DNA of 64,000 nt from Anaerolinea sp. (GTDB taxonomy: Bacteria > Chloroflexota > Limnocylindria > Limnocylindrales > CSP1-4), in NCBI GenBank assembly GCA_013822395.1, contig PNKK01000008.1:1-64000 (forward strand), read 5' to 3'. A program made the translations under genes and the position numbers. This document shows, piece by piece, positions 5,436-60,082 of this stretch. Position 1 is the stretch's first letter, and each line of letters opens with the position of its first letter. A model generated the notes under the pieces. That model did no database searches and was not told where the DNA came from. It was given only the letters and a program-made list of their open reading frames with translations.

Positions 5436-7931
5436 ATGAACGTTGCGACCAGTCGATCTCAGCGCGCAGGGCGTCTCGTATCCCTGGCCACCATCGGCGC
5501 CATGCTGGCGGTCCTGCTGCCCGCGGGCCAGGTGGCGTTCGTCCTCGCGGCCAACTCGGTCACACCGGCATCCGGCACGGCGATCTCCGCCGATACGACA
5601 ACTGCTGCCGGCGGATCGGGCGCCTGGACGACCCTGACCGGCCCGCAACTCAACGGCACCGGGGGAACGTTGGTGGCGGGAACCCAAACGTTCACCATTG
5701 CTGATCCATCCGCGTTCGAGTTCCGAGCCGGCGTCGGAAGCGCGAGCCGTACCGGGAGTGGTTGCGACACGCTTGCGATCAGCGGCACTCCGACCGTCCT
5801 CGCCGCAAGCGTCTCGGTGACACTAACAGGCGGCCCATCTATCGGAGACTGCAACATCACCCTGTCAGGACTCCAGGTCCGACCCAAACTGGCCGGCGCG
5901 GCGCCCCTCGAGTCGAGCGCCATCGATGCCGGCGGCATCGTGGTCGGAGCCGGTCTTGGTGGGACCTTGACCACGGTGCCCGGGGCTGCCCTTCTCAGCT
6001 TCACGAATGCCCCGATTGCCAACGCGGCCGCCGGGGTCAATCTCGTACCCCAGCCCGTGGTTCACAGCCAGGACGTGTTCAGCAACGCCCGAGCGGGAGA
6101 TTCGATCGCATTGACGATCAAGGCCGGCACCGGAGCGGTGGGCGGAGCCCTTGACTGCACGACGACTGTTTTAACGGACGCTGGTGGGAACGCCAATTTC
6201 GCGGACTGCGACATCGACGAGGCTGGAACGGGGTACGTTCTTCGCGCAACGACGGGCAGCTCATCCGCCGAATCGAACGCCTTCAACATCACGGCGGGGG
6301 CCGCAACCAAGCTCGCGTTCCAGACACAGCCATCCCGCGGCACGCCGAACGGGGCGTTTGCGGCGCAGCCGGTCGTGGAGATCCAGGATGCCCTCGGCAA
6401 CCGCGTCAACGACACGACAACCGTCGTGACGCTCGCCCTTCAGACCGGCACCGGAACCTTGAGCTGCACAGGCGGATTGACGAAGACGGCCGGCACCGGC
6501 GGCAGCGGGACGCCCGGCCTGGCCAGCTTCACCGGGTGCGCAGTGTCGACCGCAGGGATTGGCAAAGTCATCAGAGCGACGGCCCCGGGGCTGACGCAGA
6601 TTGACAGCAGTGCCTTCGATGTCGTCGATCAGGTCGTCTTCACGACCCAGCCGAGTACGACGGCCACCGCCGGCACGGTGTTCGCTGCCCAGCCGGTCGT
6701 CGCCGTTCGCGCAGGCTCCACGACGGCCGTCAACGACGACGTCTCCGTTGTCACGCTCTCGCTCAAGACCGGCACCGGAGCGACCGGCGCGACCCTGAGC
6801 TGCACGGGCGGCCTGTCCAAGACCGTCGTCGACGGTGTGGCGACCTTCGCGGGCTGCATGATCGACAAGATCAGCCCAGCCTCTCCGGCCAACCCGTACA
6901 GGATCCTGGCTTCAACGACGGGTCTCACGAACGCTGAGAGCGGCACCGTTGCCATTACGCCTGGTGTGGCTTCGAGGCTGACGTTCGTGACCCAGCCGGC
7001 CGGTGCGGCTGCCGGCACGGCGTTCACGACCCAGCCGATCGTCGCGATCACGGATGCCGGCGGAAACATCGTTACGTCAGGTGTCAGCGCCAATGTCTCG
7101 CTCACGATCGGGACGAATCCCGGCGTGCCGGCGGGCGTCCTGAGCTGCGTGCCGTCGATCACGGTCGCGACGGCGACGAGCGGAGCGAATGCCGGGAAGG
7201 CCGTCTTCTCTGGCTGCAAGATCACCAACAGTGGCGTGGGCTACACCCTGAACGCGATCGCGACGAACGTCGTGGGCGTCGCCTCGCTCACGGCGGCCAC
7301 GTCCACTCCGTTCACGGTTACCGCACCCGGGGCGCAGATCACGGTGACGCCCTCGGCGAGCACGATCACGTGGGGTCAGTACGTCACCGTGACGACGGCC
7401 TTCGCTGTGAACGGGGCGGGCAAGACCTTCACGCTCCAGGGGTCCCGCGACGGCCTCACCTGGTCGACGCTGGCTACGCTCACGGCCGGCGCCGGCGGAA
7501 CCGCATCATTCCTCTACAAGCCCGCGACCAACCTGTACTACAAGGCGGTCTTTGCCGGCACCTCCGATCTGCTGCCCGGGACGAGCAACACGGCCCGGAC
7601 CGTGGTCCGCCAGATCGCGCTCCTCCGGCCGACCAACGGAGGACTCGTCAAGTCGATTGCTCGGAACACCTCGATCACGTTCACCACGACGGTCCGCCCG
7701 GCGCGGGCGGACCTGCCGGCGGCGAAGGTCACGTTCCGGTTCTACCGCCTCTCCGGCGGGAGCTGGACGCTCGTCACCACGCGCGACGTGATCATCGACG
7801 TCTTCGGCAAGGCCGCCACGACATTCAGGTTCACGAGCGGCGGGAGCTGGTACGTCCGGAGCATCGCCAACCCGACTTCGTACAACGCCAACAGCGTCTG
7901 GAGCCCGGTCGAGCGGTACAACGTCCGCTGA
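5436..7931 (+). CDS. Large secreted protein with bacterial Ig-like repeats
   Basis: 831 residues. The start is fixed by GGGGAG 5 nt before the ATG. A signal peptide spans about residues 1-37 (hydrophobic core LATIGAMLAVLLP, cleavage near VLAANS). At least four degenerate repeats of about 100 residues follow, each with a TQPS...AAQPVV(E/A)I.D..GN signature, a long TLSCTGGL segment and a conserved Cys pair; they lie at roughly nt 6000-6290, 6310-6620, 6640-6960 and 6980-7320. A separate C-terminal beta domain (FTLQGSRDGLTWSTLATLTA onward) ends the protein. There is no LPxTG motif, C-terminal TM or catalytic motif, so it is probably a surface or matrix adhesin-like stalk. The repeats match invasin/Big-type folds only by pattern. 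It is followed directly by a strong hairpin and appears to be a single-gene unit. Confidence 0.75.
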   Translation: MNVATSRSQRAGRLVSLATIGAMLAVLLPAGQVAFVLAANSVTPASGTAISADTTTAAGGSGAWTTLTGPQLNGTGGTLVAGTQTFTIADPSAFEFRAGVGSASRTGSGCDTLAISGTPTVLAASVSVTLTGGPSIGDCNITLSGLQVRPKLAGAAPLESSAIDAGGIVVGAGLGGTLTTVPGAALLSFTNAPIANAAAGVNLVPQPVVHSQDVFSNARAGDSIALTIKAGTGAVGGALDCTTTVLTDAGGNANFADCDIDEAGTGYVLRATTGSSSAESNAFNITAGAATKLAFQTQPSRGTPNGAFAAQPVVEIQDALGNRVNDTTTVVTLALQTGTGTLSCTGGLTKTAGTGGSGTPGLASFTGCAVSTAGIGKVIRATAPGLTQIDSSAFDVVDQVVFTTQPSTTATAGTVFAAQPVVAVRAGSTTAVNDDVSVVTLSLKTGTGATGATLSCTGGLSKTVVDGVATFAGCMIDKISPASPANPYRILASTTGLTNAESGTVAITPGVASRLTFVTQPAGAAAGTAFTTQPIVAITDAGGNIVTSGVSANVSLTIGTNPGVPAGVLSCVPSITVATATSGANAGKAVFSGCKITNSGVGYTLNAIATNVVGVASLTAATSTPFTVTAPGAQITVTPSASTITWGQYVTVTTAFAVNGAGKTFTLQGSRDGLTWSTLATLTAGAGGTASFLYKPATNLYYKAVFAGTSDLLPGTSNTARTVVRQIALLRPTNGGLVKSIARNTSITFTTTVRPARADLPAAKVTFRFYRLSGGSWTLVTTRDVIIDVFGKAATTFRFTSGGSWYVRSIANPTSYNANSVWSPVERYNVR

Positions 7932-7960
7932 CGCCGGGCCGTCAACCTCGCCGCGCCTTT

Positions 7961-7989
7961 GGGGTCTCCCTCCCACGGAGGGGGACCCC
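7961..7989 (+). terminator. Strong hairpin after the Ig-like gene
   Basis: A 13-bp stem with a 3-nt loop: left arm GGGGTCTCCCTCC (7961-7973), right arm GGAGGGGGACCCC (7977-7989), one G-U pair. It starts 29 nt after the stop codon. No T-tract follows, so it may be an intrinsic-like or Rho-assisted terminator, or a 3'-end stabiliser. Confidence 0.6.
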
Positions 7990-8034
7990 GATCATGAGCA
8001 CTCGACCATCTCATGCACCGGCACGAAACTCAAA

Positions 8035-8062
8035 CTGACACAGCGAACTCACACGTTATGGT
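8035..8062 (+). promoter_or_regulatory. Promoter for the AbrB-type antitoxin (leaderless)
   Basis: CTGACA (8035-8040), 16 bp, TATGGT (8057-8062). The -10 ends 7 nt before the ATG at 8070, which puts the transcription start at or next to the start codon. Confidence 0.5.
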
Positions 8063-8069
8063 GCGATAC

Positions 8070-8321
8070 ATGAAGTCCACCACGACCATCTCCAAGGGCG
8101 GCCAGATCTCCATCCCAGCCGCCGTTCGGCGGCGCTGGCAGACGCGGCAGCTTCTCGTCGAGGATCAGGGCGATGCGCTCGTGCTTGGGCCGATCCCGGC
8201 CGACCCAATCGCGGCAGCCGTCGGGTCGTTGGTCGGCCCGGGACCGAGCAGCGCCGAGGTGCGTTCGCTCGTGCGTGCGGAAGAGGCGACCGCGAACGAG
8301 CGCCGGCGCAGCCCCGCTTGA
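8070..8321 (+). CDS. AbrB/MazE-type (SpoVT-fold) antitoxin
   Basis: 83 residues with an N-terminal swapped-hairpin AbrB domain, TTTISKGGQISIPAAVRRRW, followed by a VLGPIP strand and an acidic C-terminal tail that would wrap the toxin. Such proteins are VapB-type antitoxins. In-frame ATGs upstream (8013, 8058) are less likely because the promoter -10 box overlaps the one at 8058. The stop overlaps the TTG start of a downstream PIN-domain gene, so the two were translationally coupled. The partner is frameshifted, leaving this antitoxin possibly orphaned. Confidence 0.75.
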   Translation: MKSTTTISKGGQISIPAAVRRRWQTRQLLVEDQGDALVLGPIPADPIAAAVGSLVGPGPSSAEVRSLVRAEEATANERRRSPA

Positions 8322-8772
8322 GCGTCCTCGACGCACCGGCGATCATCGCGGTCCTGATTGGGGAGCCTGCGGCCGTGGAGGTCGAGCTGCTTCTGTGTCG
8401 GGCTGCTTCTGCGGGATCGGCGTGACCCGCCCCGCATCAGCGCCGTGAACCTCGGCGAAGCTCTCGACGTCCTGGGCGCGCCATCGGGGTCTGCGCGTCG
8501 AGGCGATCTCCGAGAAGCTCAGCTGGCTCACGGTCGGGGGCCTTGACGTGGTCGCGGTCGACGAGCGGACAGGGCTCCTCGCCGGAGAGCTTCACGCGCG
8601 CCACTACGATCGCGCGACGCGGGCGGTCTCGATGGCCGACTGCCTGGCCCTCGCGACCGCCAGCCTGCTCGGCGAGCGGCTGGCGACCTCGGATCCGCCG
8701 CTCGCGGAGGTCGCTCGCACGGAAGGCTGCGAGGTGATCGCGCTGCCCGACGCACGCGGCCGGCGACCCTGA
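8318..8772 (+). pseudogene. PIN-domain toxin (VapC-like), broken by frameshifts
   Basis: PIN-domain pieces are found in order but in different frames. The first reads SVLDAPAIIAVLIGEPAAVE from the TTG at 8318 (first catalytic Asp). Next comes PRISAVNLGEALDVL near 8430-8475 (the conserved Asn/Glu segment), and then LDVVAVDERTGLLAGELHAR through MADCLALATASLLGERLATS and the PDARGRRP tail from 8545 onward. At least two single-base indels lie between about 8390-8430 and 8475-8490. All conserved acidic positions are still present in the pieces, so the loss is recent or the sequence has errors. It is coupled to the AbrB-type antitoxin in a VapBC-like arrangement. Confidence 0.75.
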
Positions 8773-52385: not shown

Positions 52386-52961
52386 TCAGCCGCGGTACCG
52401 GAAGCAGCCGGGCAGGTGGTCGTCGACGAGGCCGACGCTCTGCATGAAGGCGTAGACGACCGTCGAGCCGACGAACCGGAAGCCGCGCCGGCGCAGATCG
52501 TTCGAGAGCACGTCAGAGACCGGGGTGGTCGCCGGGATGTCGGCCATCGTCGCGGTCGCCGGGAGGCGGGCGGGCGGCCACGGGACGATCGAGCCGAGGT
52601 AGGCGTCGAACGAGCCGAGCTCCCCGACGACCGCCAGGAACGCGCGCGCGTTGCCGATGGTCGCGTCGATCTTGGCCCGGTTCCGGACGATCCCCGCATC
52701 GGCCAGGAGCCGGTTCCGGTCGGCGCCGTCGAATGACGCGACCACCGCGGGGTCGAAGCCGCGGAACGCGGTCCGAAAGGCGTCGCGCTTGTTGAGGATC
52801 GTCTGCCACGACAGGCCGGCCTGGAAGGCCTCGAGTGTCAGCCGCTCGAAGAGCTCGGTGTCGTCCGTGACCGGGATGCCCCACTCGGTATCGTGGTAGG
52901 CCTGCATCCGGGGATTCGGTCGGTCGCCACCGCCCCACCAGCACCGCTGCACGTCATCCAT
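52386..52961 (-). CDS. tag: DNA-3-methyladenine glycosylase I
   Basis: 191 residues. It removes 3-methyladenine from alkylated DNA. Family hallmarks: RCWWGGG near the N-terminus, YHDTEWGIPV with the catalytic Glu region, LEAFQAGLSWQTILNKR and the C-terminal zinc ligands with LPGCFRYRG. The ATG at 52961 is preceded by TATCCT 8 nt upstream (leaderless). Stands alone. Confidence 0.94.
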   Translation of the reverse strand: MDDVQRCWWGGGDRPNPRMQAYHDTEWGIPVTDDTELFERLTLEAFQAGLSWQTILNKRDAFRTAFRGFDPAVVASFDGADRNRLLADAGIVRNRAKIDATIGNARAFLAVVGELGSFDAYLGSIVPWPPARLPATATMADIPATTPVSDVLSNDLRRRGFRFVGSTVVYAFMQSVGLVDDHLPGCFRYRG

Positions 52962-52969
52962 GAGCCCGG

Positions 52970-52975
52970 AGGATA
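52970..52975 (-). promoter_or_regulatory. Leaderless -10 box of tag
   Basis: TATCCT on the minus strand, 8 nt before the ATG at 52961. Confidence 0.35.
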
Positions 52976-53218
52976 CGCGACGGACCCGCCACGCTGGCCG
53001 GGAGCATGGCAGCCACGCTCTTCCCTGACCACGGCGCGAGCGGGACGGCGGCGAGCATGACCCCATTCGTGGGGGGTCCCGTCCGCCGCGGCGTTCCCGC
53101 GGTTGTCGTGAGCGTGAGCGTGTCGTGAGCGTCCACATGTCGTGAGCGTGAGCGTTGCCCGATGCCACGGTCGCCGCTATCCTCCCGAATCCGCGCCGCC
53201 GGATGGAGGAGAGGACGA

Positions 53219-55331: not shown

Positions 55332-56615
55332 TCAGCGAACCTCCACGACGCGATAGTGAACGGTGCCGCGCGGCGTCCTGACCTCCACGTCCTCGCCGGC
55401 GACGGCCTTGAGCAGCGCGGCGCCGACGGGTGAGGCCACGCTGATTCGACCCGCCGCCGGGTCCGACTCGGTCGAGCCCACGAGGGTGTACGTGACTGTC
55501 TCGCCATCGTGCTCCACGACGACCGTCGAGCCGATGTGGGCGCGATCCCCGCCCGACTCGTCGATGAGCACGAAGTTCCGCTTGCGTTCCACGAGCAGCC
55601 GGATCCGGCCCTCCAGGAACGACTGCTCCTCCCGCGCGGCCTGATACTCCGCGTTCTCCCGCAGATCGCCGAGCTCGCGGGCCGCCTTGATCCGGGCAAC
55701 CACGTCGGGGCGTCGCACGCGGGTCAGCTCCCCCAGCTCCACCTCCAGGCGGGCGAGCGCGTCGGCGGTGAGCGGCACGGGGACTGCGCGCGCGGACGGG
55801 GGGACCACCGGCGGCGTGGCCGCGCGCACGGCCCTCGGCACCGGTTTGGCGTGCACCCTGTCGGATCCCGTGACCGTGGCCGGTGGGTGAGCCGGCCCGC
55901 GCCGCACAGTCCCGCTGCCGCGCTCCTCGACCCGCGCTCCGTCCGCGTCGCCGGGCGGGACCTCCACGAGCCGTGCCGGCGGCGCCGGCGGCGGCGAGTC
56001 GTCGGGCAGGATGGAGCCCGTGATCCCGTGGGCTTGCCGCTCGCCGGTGGGGCGGCGCAGGTTCGCCCACGGCAGGAGGAGCGCGCCGACGGGACGTCCC
56101 GGCGGGAGGGACGATAAGACCGCCGCCGCAAAGGCGTCGAGCACAGCGTCCAGGTGCTCCTCCGGGGCGTCCGTCTCGGCGAACCAGATCCGCGCCCGCT
56201 CGATCCCGGTCAGCAGGTGGAGCCAGTGTCCGTCCGCGTGCGGACGACGGTCCCCGACGACGTGGCGGGCGAGGGCGAGAACCCGCCCGCCGAGGCTGCC
56301 GGTCGTGGCGCCCGCGTACAGGACGGTGGACGAGGGCAGCCAGAGCGCCGCCAGGCGCGCCGCCAGCGCTCTGGACTTCGGGCGGACGCCGTCGAGGCGC
56401 AGGTTGGGAACGTGCTCAATCCACTTGCCGAGGCGGGCCAGCTCGATGCGTGGCGCGGCGAGCGGCTCGGCCAGCTCCACGATGTAGAGTCCCGGGGCGC
56501 GCGTCGTGAGCGGCCGTCCCCAGAGGACCGGGCCGTCGGGCCGGAGCCCGACCTCACGGAGGAGCTCAGCTGCACTCGTCGGGGTCCCGTCTACCACGCA
56601 ATCTCCGGCTGCCAT
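55332..56615 (-). CDS. GIY-YIG-like domain fused to a Gre transcript-cleavage factor
   Basis: 427 residues. Residues about 42-165 resemble a GIY-YIG nuclease-type domain: GLYIVELAE, an inserted segment GKWIEHVPNLRLDGVRPKSR, then VLYAGATTGSLGGRVLALAR and a His-rich PHADGHWLHLL with a later Glu (EEHLDAV). A Pro-rich linker (about 195-279) follows. Residues 280-427 are a complete GreA/GreB: the coiled-coil with RELGDLRENAEYQAAREEQS, whose Asp317 and Glu320 correspond to the catalytic tip, then the C-terminal FKBP-like domain with PVGAALLKAVAGEDVEV. Gre factors rescue backtracked RNA polymerase. The fusion suggests targeting of a nuclease-like module to stalled transcription. It starts at ATG 56615; a GTG at 56633 is possible. 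Confidence 0.8.
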   Translation of the reverse strand: MAAGDCVVDGTPTSAAELLREVGLRPDGPVLWGRPLTTRAPGLYIVELAEPLAAPRIELARLGKWIEHVPNLRLDGVRPKSRALAARLAALWLPSSTVLYAGATTGSLGGRVLALARHVVGDRRPHADGHWLHLLTGIERARIWFAETDAPEEHLDAVLDAFAAAVLSSLPPGRPVGALLLPWANLRRPTGERQAHGITGSILPDDSPPPAPPARLVEVPPGDADGARVEERGSGTVRRGPAHPPATVTGSDRVHAKPVPRAVRAATPPVVPPSARAVPVPLTADALARLEVELGELTRVRRPDVVARIKAARELGDLRENAEYQAAREEQSFLEGRIRLLVERKRNFVLIDESGGDRAHIGSTVVVEHDGETVTYTLVGSTESDPAAGRISVASPVGAALLKAVAGEDVEVRTPRGTVHYRVVEVR

Positions 56616-58713: not shown

Positions 58714-59973
58714 TCAGCTGCGGGAGCCGCTCCCCGACCGCGTGCGGCCGGTGCTCCGGTGGGCGTAGTGGTGGGTGCGGACCGGCCGTCCGGCCGACGG
58801 TCCGCGGAGCGGGACGGGTTCGGCGTTCCGGTCAGGCACGAAGCCCTCCTCCACCGTCCAGGGGATCGCCTTCTTGAGGAGACGCTGCACACCGCGGAGG
58901 AGATCTGCCTCGTCGATCGAGACCAGGCTGACGGCGTCGCCGGTGGCCCCGGCTCGGCCCGTCCGACCGATCCGGTGGATGTAGTCCTGCGGCTCCCATG
59001 GGAGCTCGAAGTTGACGACGTGCGGGAGGTCCTCGATGTCGAGGCCGCGGGCGGCGACATCGGTCGCCACGAGGACCCGGATCTCGCCGCTCTTGAAGCC
59101 CTCGAGGGCGCGCGTCCGCTCGGGCTGCGTCCGGTCGGAGTGGATTGCCACGGCCTCCAGCCCGCGCCGGTCGAGGTACGTCGCCAGCCGTGACGCCCCG
59201 ATCTTCGTTCGGGTGAAGACGAGGACCTGGCGCCAGTCGTACTTCGAGACGAGATGCGCGAGGAGCGCCTCCTTCCGGTCGCGATCGACCGGGTAGACCA
59301 GCTGGCGGACCGACTCGGCGGCGGTGTTGCGGGCTGCGACCTCGACCGTTGCGGGATCCCGGAGGATGGAGCCGGACAGGCGCCGGATGTCGTCCGAGAA
59401 GGTCGCCGAGAACATGAGGTTCTGACGTCGCGGCGGGAGGAGCTCCAGGATGCGCCGGATATCGGGCAGGAAGCCCATGTCCAGCATCCGGTCCGCCTCG
59501 TCGAGGACCAGGATCTCCACCTGGCCCAGGTTGACCGTCTTCTGACCGACGTGGTCGAGCAGGCGCCCGGGCGTGGCGACGAGGATCTCGACACCGGCCC
59601 GGAGCGCCTTCGTCTGGGGTTCGATCGGGACCCCGCCGAAGACGACGGTGGGCCGGAGCGGTACCGTCCGGCCGTAGGTCCGGACGCTCTCGTCGACCTG
59701 CATGGCGAGCTCGCGGGTCGGCACCAGGATGAGGACCCGGACCGGGTGGCGCGCGGGCGAGAAGGACGTGTTCGCGTGACTGCGCAGGCGATCCAGGATC
59801 GGGAGGACGAAGGCGGCGGTCTTGCCGGTTCCCGTCTGGGCCGCCGCGAGAACGTCCCGGCCGGCGAGCACGTGCGGGATGGCGGCGGCCTGAACCGGCG
59901 TCGGCTCCGTATAGCCCTCCTCGGCCACCACCGCGACGAGATCGGCCGACAGGCCGAGCGATTCGAAGGTCAA
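58714..59973 (-). CDS. DEAD-box RNA helicase (RhlE-like)
   Basis: About 419 residues from a TTG preceded by GGAG; a longer open frame back to 60060 adds non-conserved residues. Motif Q ([10 protein letters not shown]), I (AQTGTGKT), Ia (PTRELAM), II (DEADRM), III (SATF), V ([14 protein letters not shown]) and VI ([10 protein letters not shown]) are all present. The C-terminal tail is basic and Gly/Arg/Ser-rich, for RNA binding. Likely involved in ribosome assembly or mRNA turnover. Confidence 0.94.
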
Positions 59974-60082
59974 GCTGTCTCCAGGTCTGCCATGGTCATC
60001 GTCCGCGCGCCGGGCGTCGGGACGACGGACGGGCGTCGCGAGGATACCGGATCGGCGCACAGCCGCGTTCCGGGCCCTCGAC

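Follow-up and report, generated by a model that had tools for sequence, protein, structure and literature searches.

The stretch of DNA analysed here, referred to as the window, comprises 64,000 nucleotides of an assembly of Anaerolinea sp. (Chloroflexota; contig PNKK01000008.1, positions 1 to 64,000). It carries a gene in which a predicted GIY-YIG-like domain, a linker and a complete GreA follow one another within a single frame (Table 1). An earlier reading of the letters alone, the sequence-only reading, had described a frame of 427 residues, and this is found exactly at 55332-56615, on the minus strand, which that reading had not given. An alternative GTG start lies 18 bases upstream of the ATG and would yield a protein of 433 residues. 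The motifs named for the N-terminal part are all present (GLYIVEL, residues 42-48; VLYAGAT, 98-104; RVLALAR, 111-117; PHADGHW, 125-131), as are the Pro-rich linker and, behind it, the full GreA with GDLRENAEY.

Table 1. Features of the fused gene and its recurring neighbour in the window
Feature	Window positions	Strand	Basis or remark
Complete fused gene (GIY-YIG-like domain, linker and GreA)	55332..56615	minus	ATG start, 427 residues
Predicted GIY-YIG-like N-terminal domain, residues 14-203	56007..56576	minus	AlphaFold, VIA-align, profile-profile match
First strand, residues 42-47, GIY-type Tyr44	56475..56492	minus	Predicted structure and alignment
Second strand, residues 98-104 (VLYAGAT), YIG-type Tyr100	56304..56324	minus	Predicted structure and alignment
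Helix 108-116 with Arg111; Arg+4 is Leu115	56268..56294	minus	Predicted structure and alignment
Leu155 codon, where GIY-YIG enzymes canonically have their metal-binding Glu	56151..56153	minus	Alignments
Residues 182-197, PWANLRRPTGERQAHG, including Asn185 of the GIY-YIG set	56025..56072	minus	Alignments
Pro/Ala-rich linker, residues 206-279	55779..56000	minus	Composition and AlphaFold
GreA_GreB_N coiled coil (PF03449), residues 280-344	55584..55778	minus	Pfam
Acidic tip GDLRENAEY, residues 316-324	55644..55670	minus	Alignment to E. coli GreA 1grj
GreA_GreB C-terminal domain (PF01272), residues 357-426	55338..55547	minus	Pfam
DEAD-box helicase gene, recurring same-strand neighbour	58714..60060	minus	Context only

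The Gre domains are the sole Pfam matches of the fused protein, both above cut-off (PF03449, 1.6e-22; PF01272, 2.4e-22). The NCBIfam GreA models TIGR01462 and NF001263 lie barely above theirs (145.6 bits for NF001263, cut-off 145). Residues 280-427 share the acidic-tip coiled coil and C-terminal domain of E. coli GreA (1grj), whereas the fusion has 279 extra N-terminal residues and belongs to a lineage separate from the solo GreA of its own family. When residues 280-426 are aligned to 1grj by phmmer, Asp317 corresponds to chain position 41 and Glu320 to position 44, the acidic residues that have a functional role at the tip of GreA. Long GreA proteins with Gre likewise at the C-terminus are described by the models NF004969 and NF011309 (718 and 906 positions), which occur in chlamydiae and spirochaetes. 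Both match the window protein through the Gre part only, and their extra parts have no match to residues 1-279. In the established view, any polymerase that has backtracked is a target of Gre factors. The Gre half likely stimulates RNA cleavage in backtracked RNA polymerase, since the tip is intact in all 57 distinct fusions (53 by pattern, 4 by inspection). This set comprises the fusions of 56 genomes of the window's family and the record L048; the loci L043-L047 and L097-L126 are excluded from the residue counts over these fusions. As Gfh1 illustrates, an acidic tip does not guarantee cleavage stimulation (PMC4598747).

The N-terminal domain is predicted to have the GIY-YIG nuclease fold. 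The AlphaFold model of residues 14-203 has a predicted local distance difference test score (pLDDT) of 93.5 and was aligned to GIY-YIG structures with VIA-align; together with profile-profile comparison, this places about residues 14-203 in a GIY-YIG-like fold, as had been proposed. All of Tyr44, Tyr100, Arg111 and Asn185 of the GIY-YIG set are present. The spacing between GLY and YAG had been called unusually long, and 56 residues indeed separate the two tyrosines, with predicted helices at 59-68 and 81-90. For comparison, the spacing is 27 in the restriction enzyme R.Eco29kI (Y49, Y76; PMC1952068). At the limits applied, searches of Pfam, PADLOC and PHROGs gave no match to residues 1-279, and NCBIfam gave a single noise-level model (E 0.92), the PADLOC (defence) and PHROGs (phage) libraries giving weak unrelated matches only. 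Phmmer of the full protein against solved GIY-YIG structures found no direct sequence match. In Foldseek searches of the PDB at E <= 0.001, the full model returned 14 matches, all Gre-type structures, and the N-domain model none.

The linker is predicted to be disordered, with pLDDT below 50 at residues 226-228 and 230-272. Within it, residues 219-239 (window 55899-55961, minus strand) form a recurring stretch, VPPGDADGARVEERGSGTVRR, of which Gly222, Ala224, Gly226 and Arg239 are invariant among 25 aligned relatives.

The relation to known GIY-YIG proteins is clearest in the wider family. Two N-domain profile searches gave 131 and 371 matches, of which the best 120 of each were examined among candidates of up to about 360 residues. 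Some of the matches listed lack Gre, and these include a compact family whose members have about 202 residues; truncated fusions are also counted among those lacking Gre, because longer candidates were excluded. Thirteen compact-family rows, one of which (P0316) has 306 residues, were combined in the profile A7. In hhalign comparisons with 20 UvrC domains from genomes of the window's order, A7 scored 37.3; 150 column shuffles reached 19.8 at most, and the reversed comparison 17.7. The pooled N-domain family scored 34.9 against the same domains (shuffle maximum 18.5; reversed 20.2). The window clade alone (profile A3) scored 15.1, a value reached by 12 of 150 shuffles, with 16.0 when reversed. 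In the pooled alignment, the YVG, Arg, Arg+4 Tyr and last Glu of EALLLE of UvrC fall on Y97, R108, Y112 and E152 of P0231, so that the wider family follows the UvrC N-terminal GIY-YIG domain from the YIG motif through Arg and the Arg+4 Tyr to the helix that bears the Glu. The same YVG-Arg-Tyr pairing was given by hmmsearch of the compact-family profile against UvrC 1yd6, at an E of only 1.2 and ranked below unrelated rows. Comparison with relatives of Pfam GIY_YIG_2, in which only two sequences were involved after six others had failed a motif filter, gave probabilities of 9.2, 6.0 and 0.8% and no useful alignment; a Pfam scan of the 13 rows matched GIY_YIG_2 in two, with a best E of 0.003. 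The N-domain points to a branch of the GIY-YIG superfamily missed by Pfam, NCBIfam, PADLOC and PHROGs at their cut-offs, and this family is a by-product of the analysis.

The fusion is not itself UvrC, as it has no match to a Pfam GIY-YIG family. Its role as a UvrC replacement was rejected. The window's genome has no Pfam GIY-YIG match, and the sole match of the uvrC model there reaches 19.6 bits on another contig, C18 (cut-off 285.45), the fusion being unmatched. This genome, however, is only 70% complete, and across the order a Pfam GIY-YIG match is found elsewhere in 74 of 80 genomes, for the most part within frames that have the length of UvrC.

Two alignments equate Y34, Y97, R108, Y112, E152 and N182 of P0231 with Y44, Y100, R111, L115, L155 and N185 of the window protein, the Glu column having been fixed through hhalign to UvrC. 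All six residues are invariant in the 13 rows of A7, which keep the whole catalytic set. The later Glu noted by the sequence-only reading has counterparts in Glu152 and Glu153, but where active GIY-YIG nucleases have their canonical metal-binding Glu, the alignments place Leu155. At Arg+4, where a Tyr or His is expected, the window protein has Leu115, as against Tyr112 in P0231 and Tyr in UvrC. The fusion differs from the GIY-YIG restriction enzymes R.Eco29kI (3nic, 3mx4, 3mx1) and R.Hpy188I (3oqg) in having Leu at both positions and in carrying Gre. For R.Eco29kI, cleavage is reported as absent in Y49A, H108F and E142A, about 2% in R104A and about 10% in N154L. DNA is bound by these variants with dissociation constants (bimolecular model) of 45 nM for E142A, 49 nM for Y49A and a worse 114 nM for H108F, compared with 16 nM (PMC1952068). 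Loss of this Glu abolishes cleavage and not DNA binding in R.Eco29kI. With Leu155 and Leu115 in place, the proposal of a transcription-coupled nuclease is not supported for the window protein. The two-part fusion, the intact Gre factor and the GIY-YIG-like fold of the same proposal are supported.

Across the 57 fusions, Arg111 is kept throughout. Tyr44 is kept in 30 and lost in 27, nearly always to Phe; Tyr100 is kept in 37 (20 losses) and Asn185 in 29 (28 losses). Position 155 is Glu in 39, the 18 losses being to Leu (12), Ala (5) and Gln (1), and all five core positions are retained in eight fusions. That the N-domain is an active nuclease, nicking DNA (or RNA) upon docking of Gre with a metal site rearranged in the window's clade, would accord with the Glu of the 39, the eight complete sets and the four residues kept in the window protein. 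His118, present in all 12 Leu155 fusions and in 2 of the 45 others, could hint at such a rewired site. Against this, the losses are widespread and include both Leu155 and Leu115 in the window protein; furthermore, the Leu/Phe155 fusions form one clade in the protein tree, so the association of His118 with Leu155 does not represent many independent events. An active nuclease is considered improbable. In a wider set of 132 Gre rows, position 155 is Leu in 113 and Glu in 7, an excess that arises because the listed matches are the nearest relatives of the window protein. L042 is the only one of the eight family frames lacking Gre to retain the complete set of five core positions. Glu47 (codon 56475-56477) is invariant in the 57 fusions and is Ala or Thr in 11 of the 13 compact-family rows; it is a possible substitute acid.

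The N-domain is under constraint despite its catalytic erosion, as judged from the coding sequences. In 11 chosen close pairs, the ratio of nonsynonymous to synonymous substitution rates (dN/dS) is 0.05-0.19 for the N-domain and 0.03-0.15 for Gre, the N-domain being higher in nine. The median pairwise identity among fusions (1596 pairs) is 0.47 for the N-domain and 0.53 for the Gre part. The net charge of the window protein is +3 in the N-domain and +3 in the linker, with medians over the 57 fusions of +1 and +7. The low dN/dS and near-neutral charge would also suit a degenerate domain that has lost nucleic-acid binding and docks onto RNA polymerase or a partner such as the DEAD-box helicase, conferring a distinct target or regulation. 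In favour of docking, 11 of 21 loci, the window included, have a same-strand relative of this helicase at 66-3730 bases from the N-domain gene, upstream of it in 10. At the other 10 loci, some cut by contig ends, it was not found, and opposite-strand genes separate it from the fused gene in the window. These points, and the retention of Arg111 in every fusion, speak against docking, and a docking module is rated as rather unlikely. An operon with the helicase is not claimed.

The fusion was sought in other genomes, for which the order sample consisted of 80 genomes, at least 80% complete except the window's own; 69 belong to the window's family (f1). With residues 1-190 as query, at least 511 matches were obtained at E <= 1e-3 (7998 candidates scored). 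The best 120 of these include both Gre domains in 117, PF03449 alone in one and neither in two (249 and 264 residues). A broad N-domain profile matches 65 of the 80 genomes, every one in f1; no match was found with it in four f1 genomes (G016, G043, G050, G065). One match (G061) is weak (1.7e-10) and partial, and frames were read in the other 64. The N-domain and Gre lie within one frame in 56 of these. Three were not judged, as two frames run off a contig end (G013, G021) and the third (G042) holds a stretch of N, shortly beyond which Gre is matched. In the remaining five the N-domain has a different C-terminal part. The fusion is no assembly artefact, the circumstance that could have undone the earlier reading, because the same fused frame recurs in these 56 genomes. 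In wider samples of the class and phylum, the N-domain was found in f1 alone: the compact-family profile matched 77 of 151 class genomes, and a window-clade profile 32 of 400 phylum genomes. As the latter profile is the narrower one, the phylum search may have overlooked distant relatives that are unfused. Two named records carry the fusion: L048, a Limnocylindrales metagenome-assembled genome (MAG), and L049, a Chloroflexi MAG. The broad profile found no N-domain in a second family of the order, f2, whose 11 genomes measure 1.0-1.2 Mb; 10 of these have one Gre frame. Judged by kinship and genome size, f1 and f2 are probably the CSP1-4 and Limnocylindraceae described in PMC13212565.

At least two Gre frames occur in 61 of the 69 f1 genomes, and a further Gre frame accompanies the fusion in 55 of 56 genomes, the exception being the window's own. 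The idea that the fusion is its genome's sole GreA was set aside, given the completeness of that genome and these counts; the solo copy may lie in the missing part. These further frames also bear on whether the protein is an ordinary transcript-cleavage factor to which the N-domain, as a passenger, adds little. The invariably intact tip fits such a factor, as do the listed names of fused relatives with both Gre domains, which say GreA where the source names them. With a further Gre almost always at hand and an N-domain nearly as conserved as the Gre part, in identity and dN/dS, a mere passenger is very improbable.

A quick, midpoint-rooted tree of 89 Gre domains (149 columns), in which many forks are unresolved, requires three changes of the fused label, one of them forced by starred branches. 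Three rows depart from the pattern: L158, L162 and L042, the last of which has a frame interrupted by N. The remaining 25 solo GreA copies of f1 form one group (98), which joins the f2 copies (89). L158 (G025), a divergent unfused second GreA, and L162 (G023), an unfused GreA, fall outside the solo clade in genomes where the N-domain is unfused to Gre, and are possibly a split fusion. The corresponding tree of 89 N-domains, also quick and midpoint-rooted, has many short or truncated rows. It contains a clade of 29 rows (99; 24 with Gre and 5 short) with Leu or Phe at position 155, nested in a 50-row clade (96) that includes Glu-retaining Gre rows. On this tree the Gre label must change seven times, at least five by starred branches, and the architecture labels 14 times. 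A single clean fusion event is not borne out by these seven changes of the Gre label, although many of the rows are short or truncated.

It is tentatively favoured that the window protein is a GreA paralog whose degenerate GIY-YIG module, held on a tether, likely attaches to DNA close to stalled polymerase and leaves it uncut. With its acidic tip intact, the protein would promote transcript cleavage in backtracked RNA polymerase, and the Gre domain suggests a role at stalled polymerase. The N-domain, having no metal-binding Glu, would serve as a tethered DNA-binding module and not as a cutter. Bound to DNA, perhaps forked or damaged, near a stalled polymerase, it would concentrate Gre activity there. 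Binding without cutting is plausible because the E142A and Y49A variants of R.Eco29kI bind DNA without cleavage, and by analogy a domain that has lost Glu yet keeps Arg and Asn could resemble such a binding module. Two observations call for caution: the Arg+4 residue is lost (Leu115), and the net charge of the N-domain is near-neutral.

A bolder version would make the N-domain a GIY-YIG nuclease turned sensor arm, which recognises a DNA structure arising where transcription bubbles are stalled or damaged and brings a dedicated GreA to it. The protein would then be a backtracking rescue factor targeted to lesions or forks, in parallel to the housekeeping GreA. Its Glu-retaining relatives would also nick, and the family would span a switch from nuclease to sensor; this is regarded as unlikely. 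A Gre factor to which a module of repair-type nuclease origin is covalently attached would provide a direct physical link from transcript cleavage to DNA recognition. Family f1 supplies natural variants for testing, with Glu kept or lost and the domains fused or unfused. Fusion of GIY-YIG to another domain has a precedent in plant GRXS16 (2lwf), where the partner is glutaredoxin; this protein is reported to be an active nuclease whose halves regulate each other (PMC5890173). In contrast, the partner in the window protein is Gre and the catalytic site is eroded. None of the components is new, as Gre factors, GIY-YIG domains and longer Gre proteins have all been described; a literature search, with subscription papers and preprints outside its scope, found no paper linking GreA with GIY-YIG.

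A second architecture joins the N-domain to a C-terminal part of about 90 residues (roughly LxxLLRAGxIxxAxQxxxRWxIxC) in P0144, P0185, P0304, P0316, L050, L051, L052, L075 and L033. This part has no Pfam or NCBIfam family and, as a guess, is winged-helix-like. The five f1 genomes with a different C-terminal part (G001, G023-G026) carry this architecture in place of the Gre fusion. Glu-retaining relatives (L043-L045, L046, L047) are found in Mycobacterium asiaticum, an uncultured actinobacterium and a deltaproteobacterial MAG; in L043 the relative is followed by a protein-kinase-like frame at 6758-8329. Weak matches in short frames (G061:C61:73419-73655, G027:C12:26269-26505 and G017:C5:142736-142996; E 1.7e-10 to 2e-7) extend only over roughly 75-156 in the N-domain profile, which has 193 positions, and are possibly other GIY-YIG proteins.

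In the window, the fused gene is flanked on the high side by genes for a beta-lactamase-fold protein and the DEAD-box helicase, and on the low side by cupredoxin-like, RidA-like, transglycosylase-like and Tag-type glycosylase genes. Tag-mediated repair is reported as lost in the Limnocylindraceae (PMC13212565). The Tag-type methyladenine glycosylase gene of the window lies at 52386-53168 on the minus strand.
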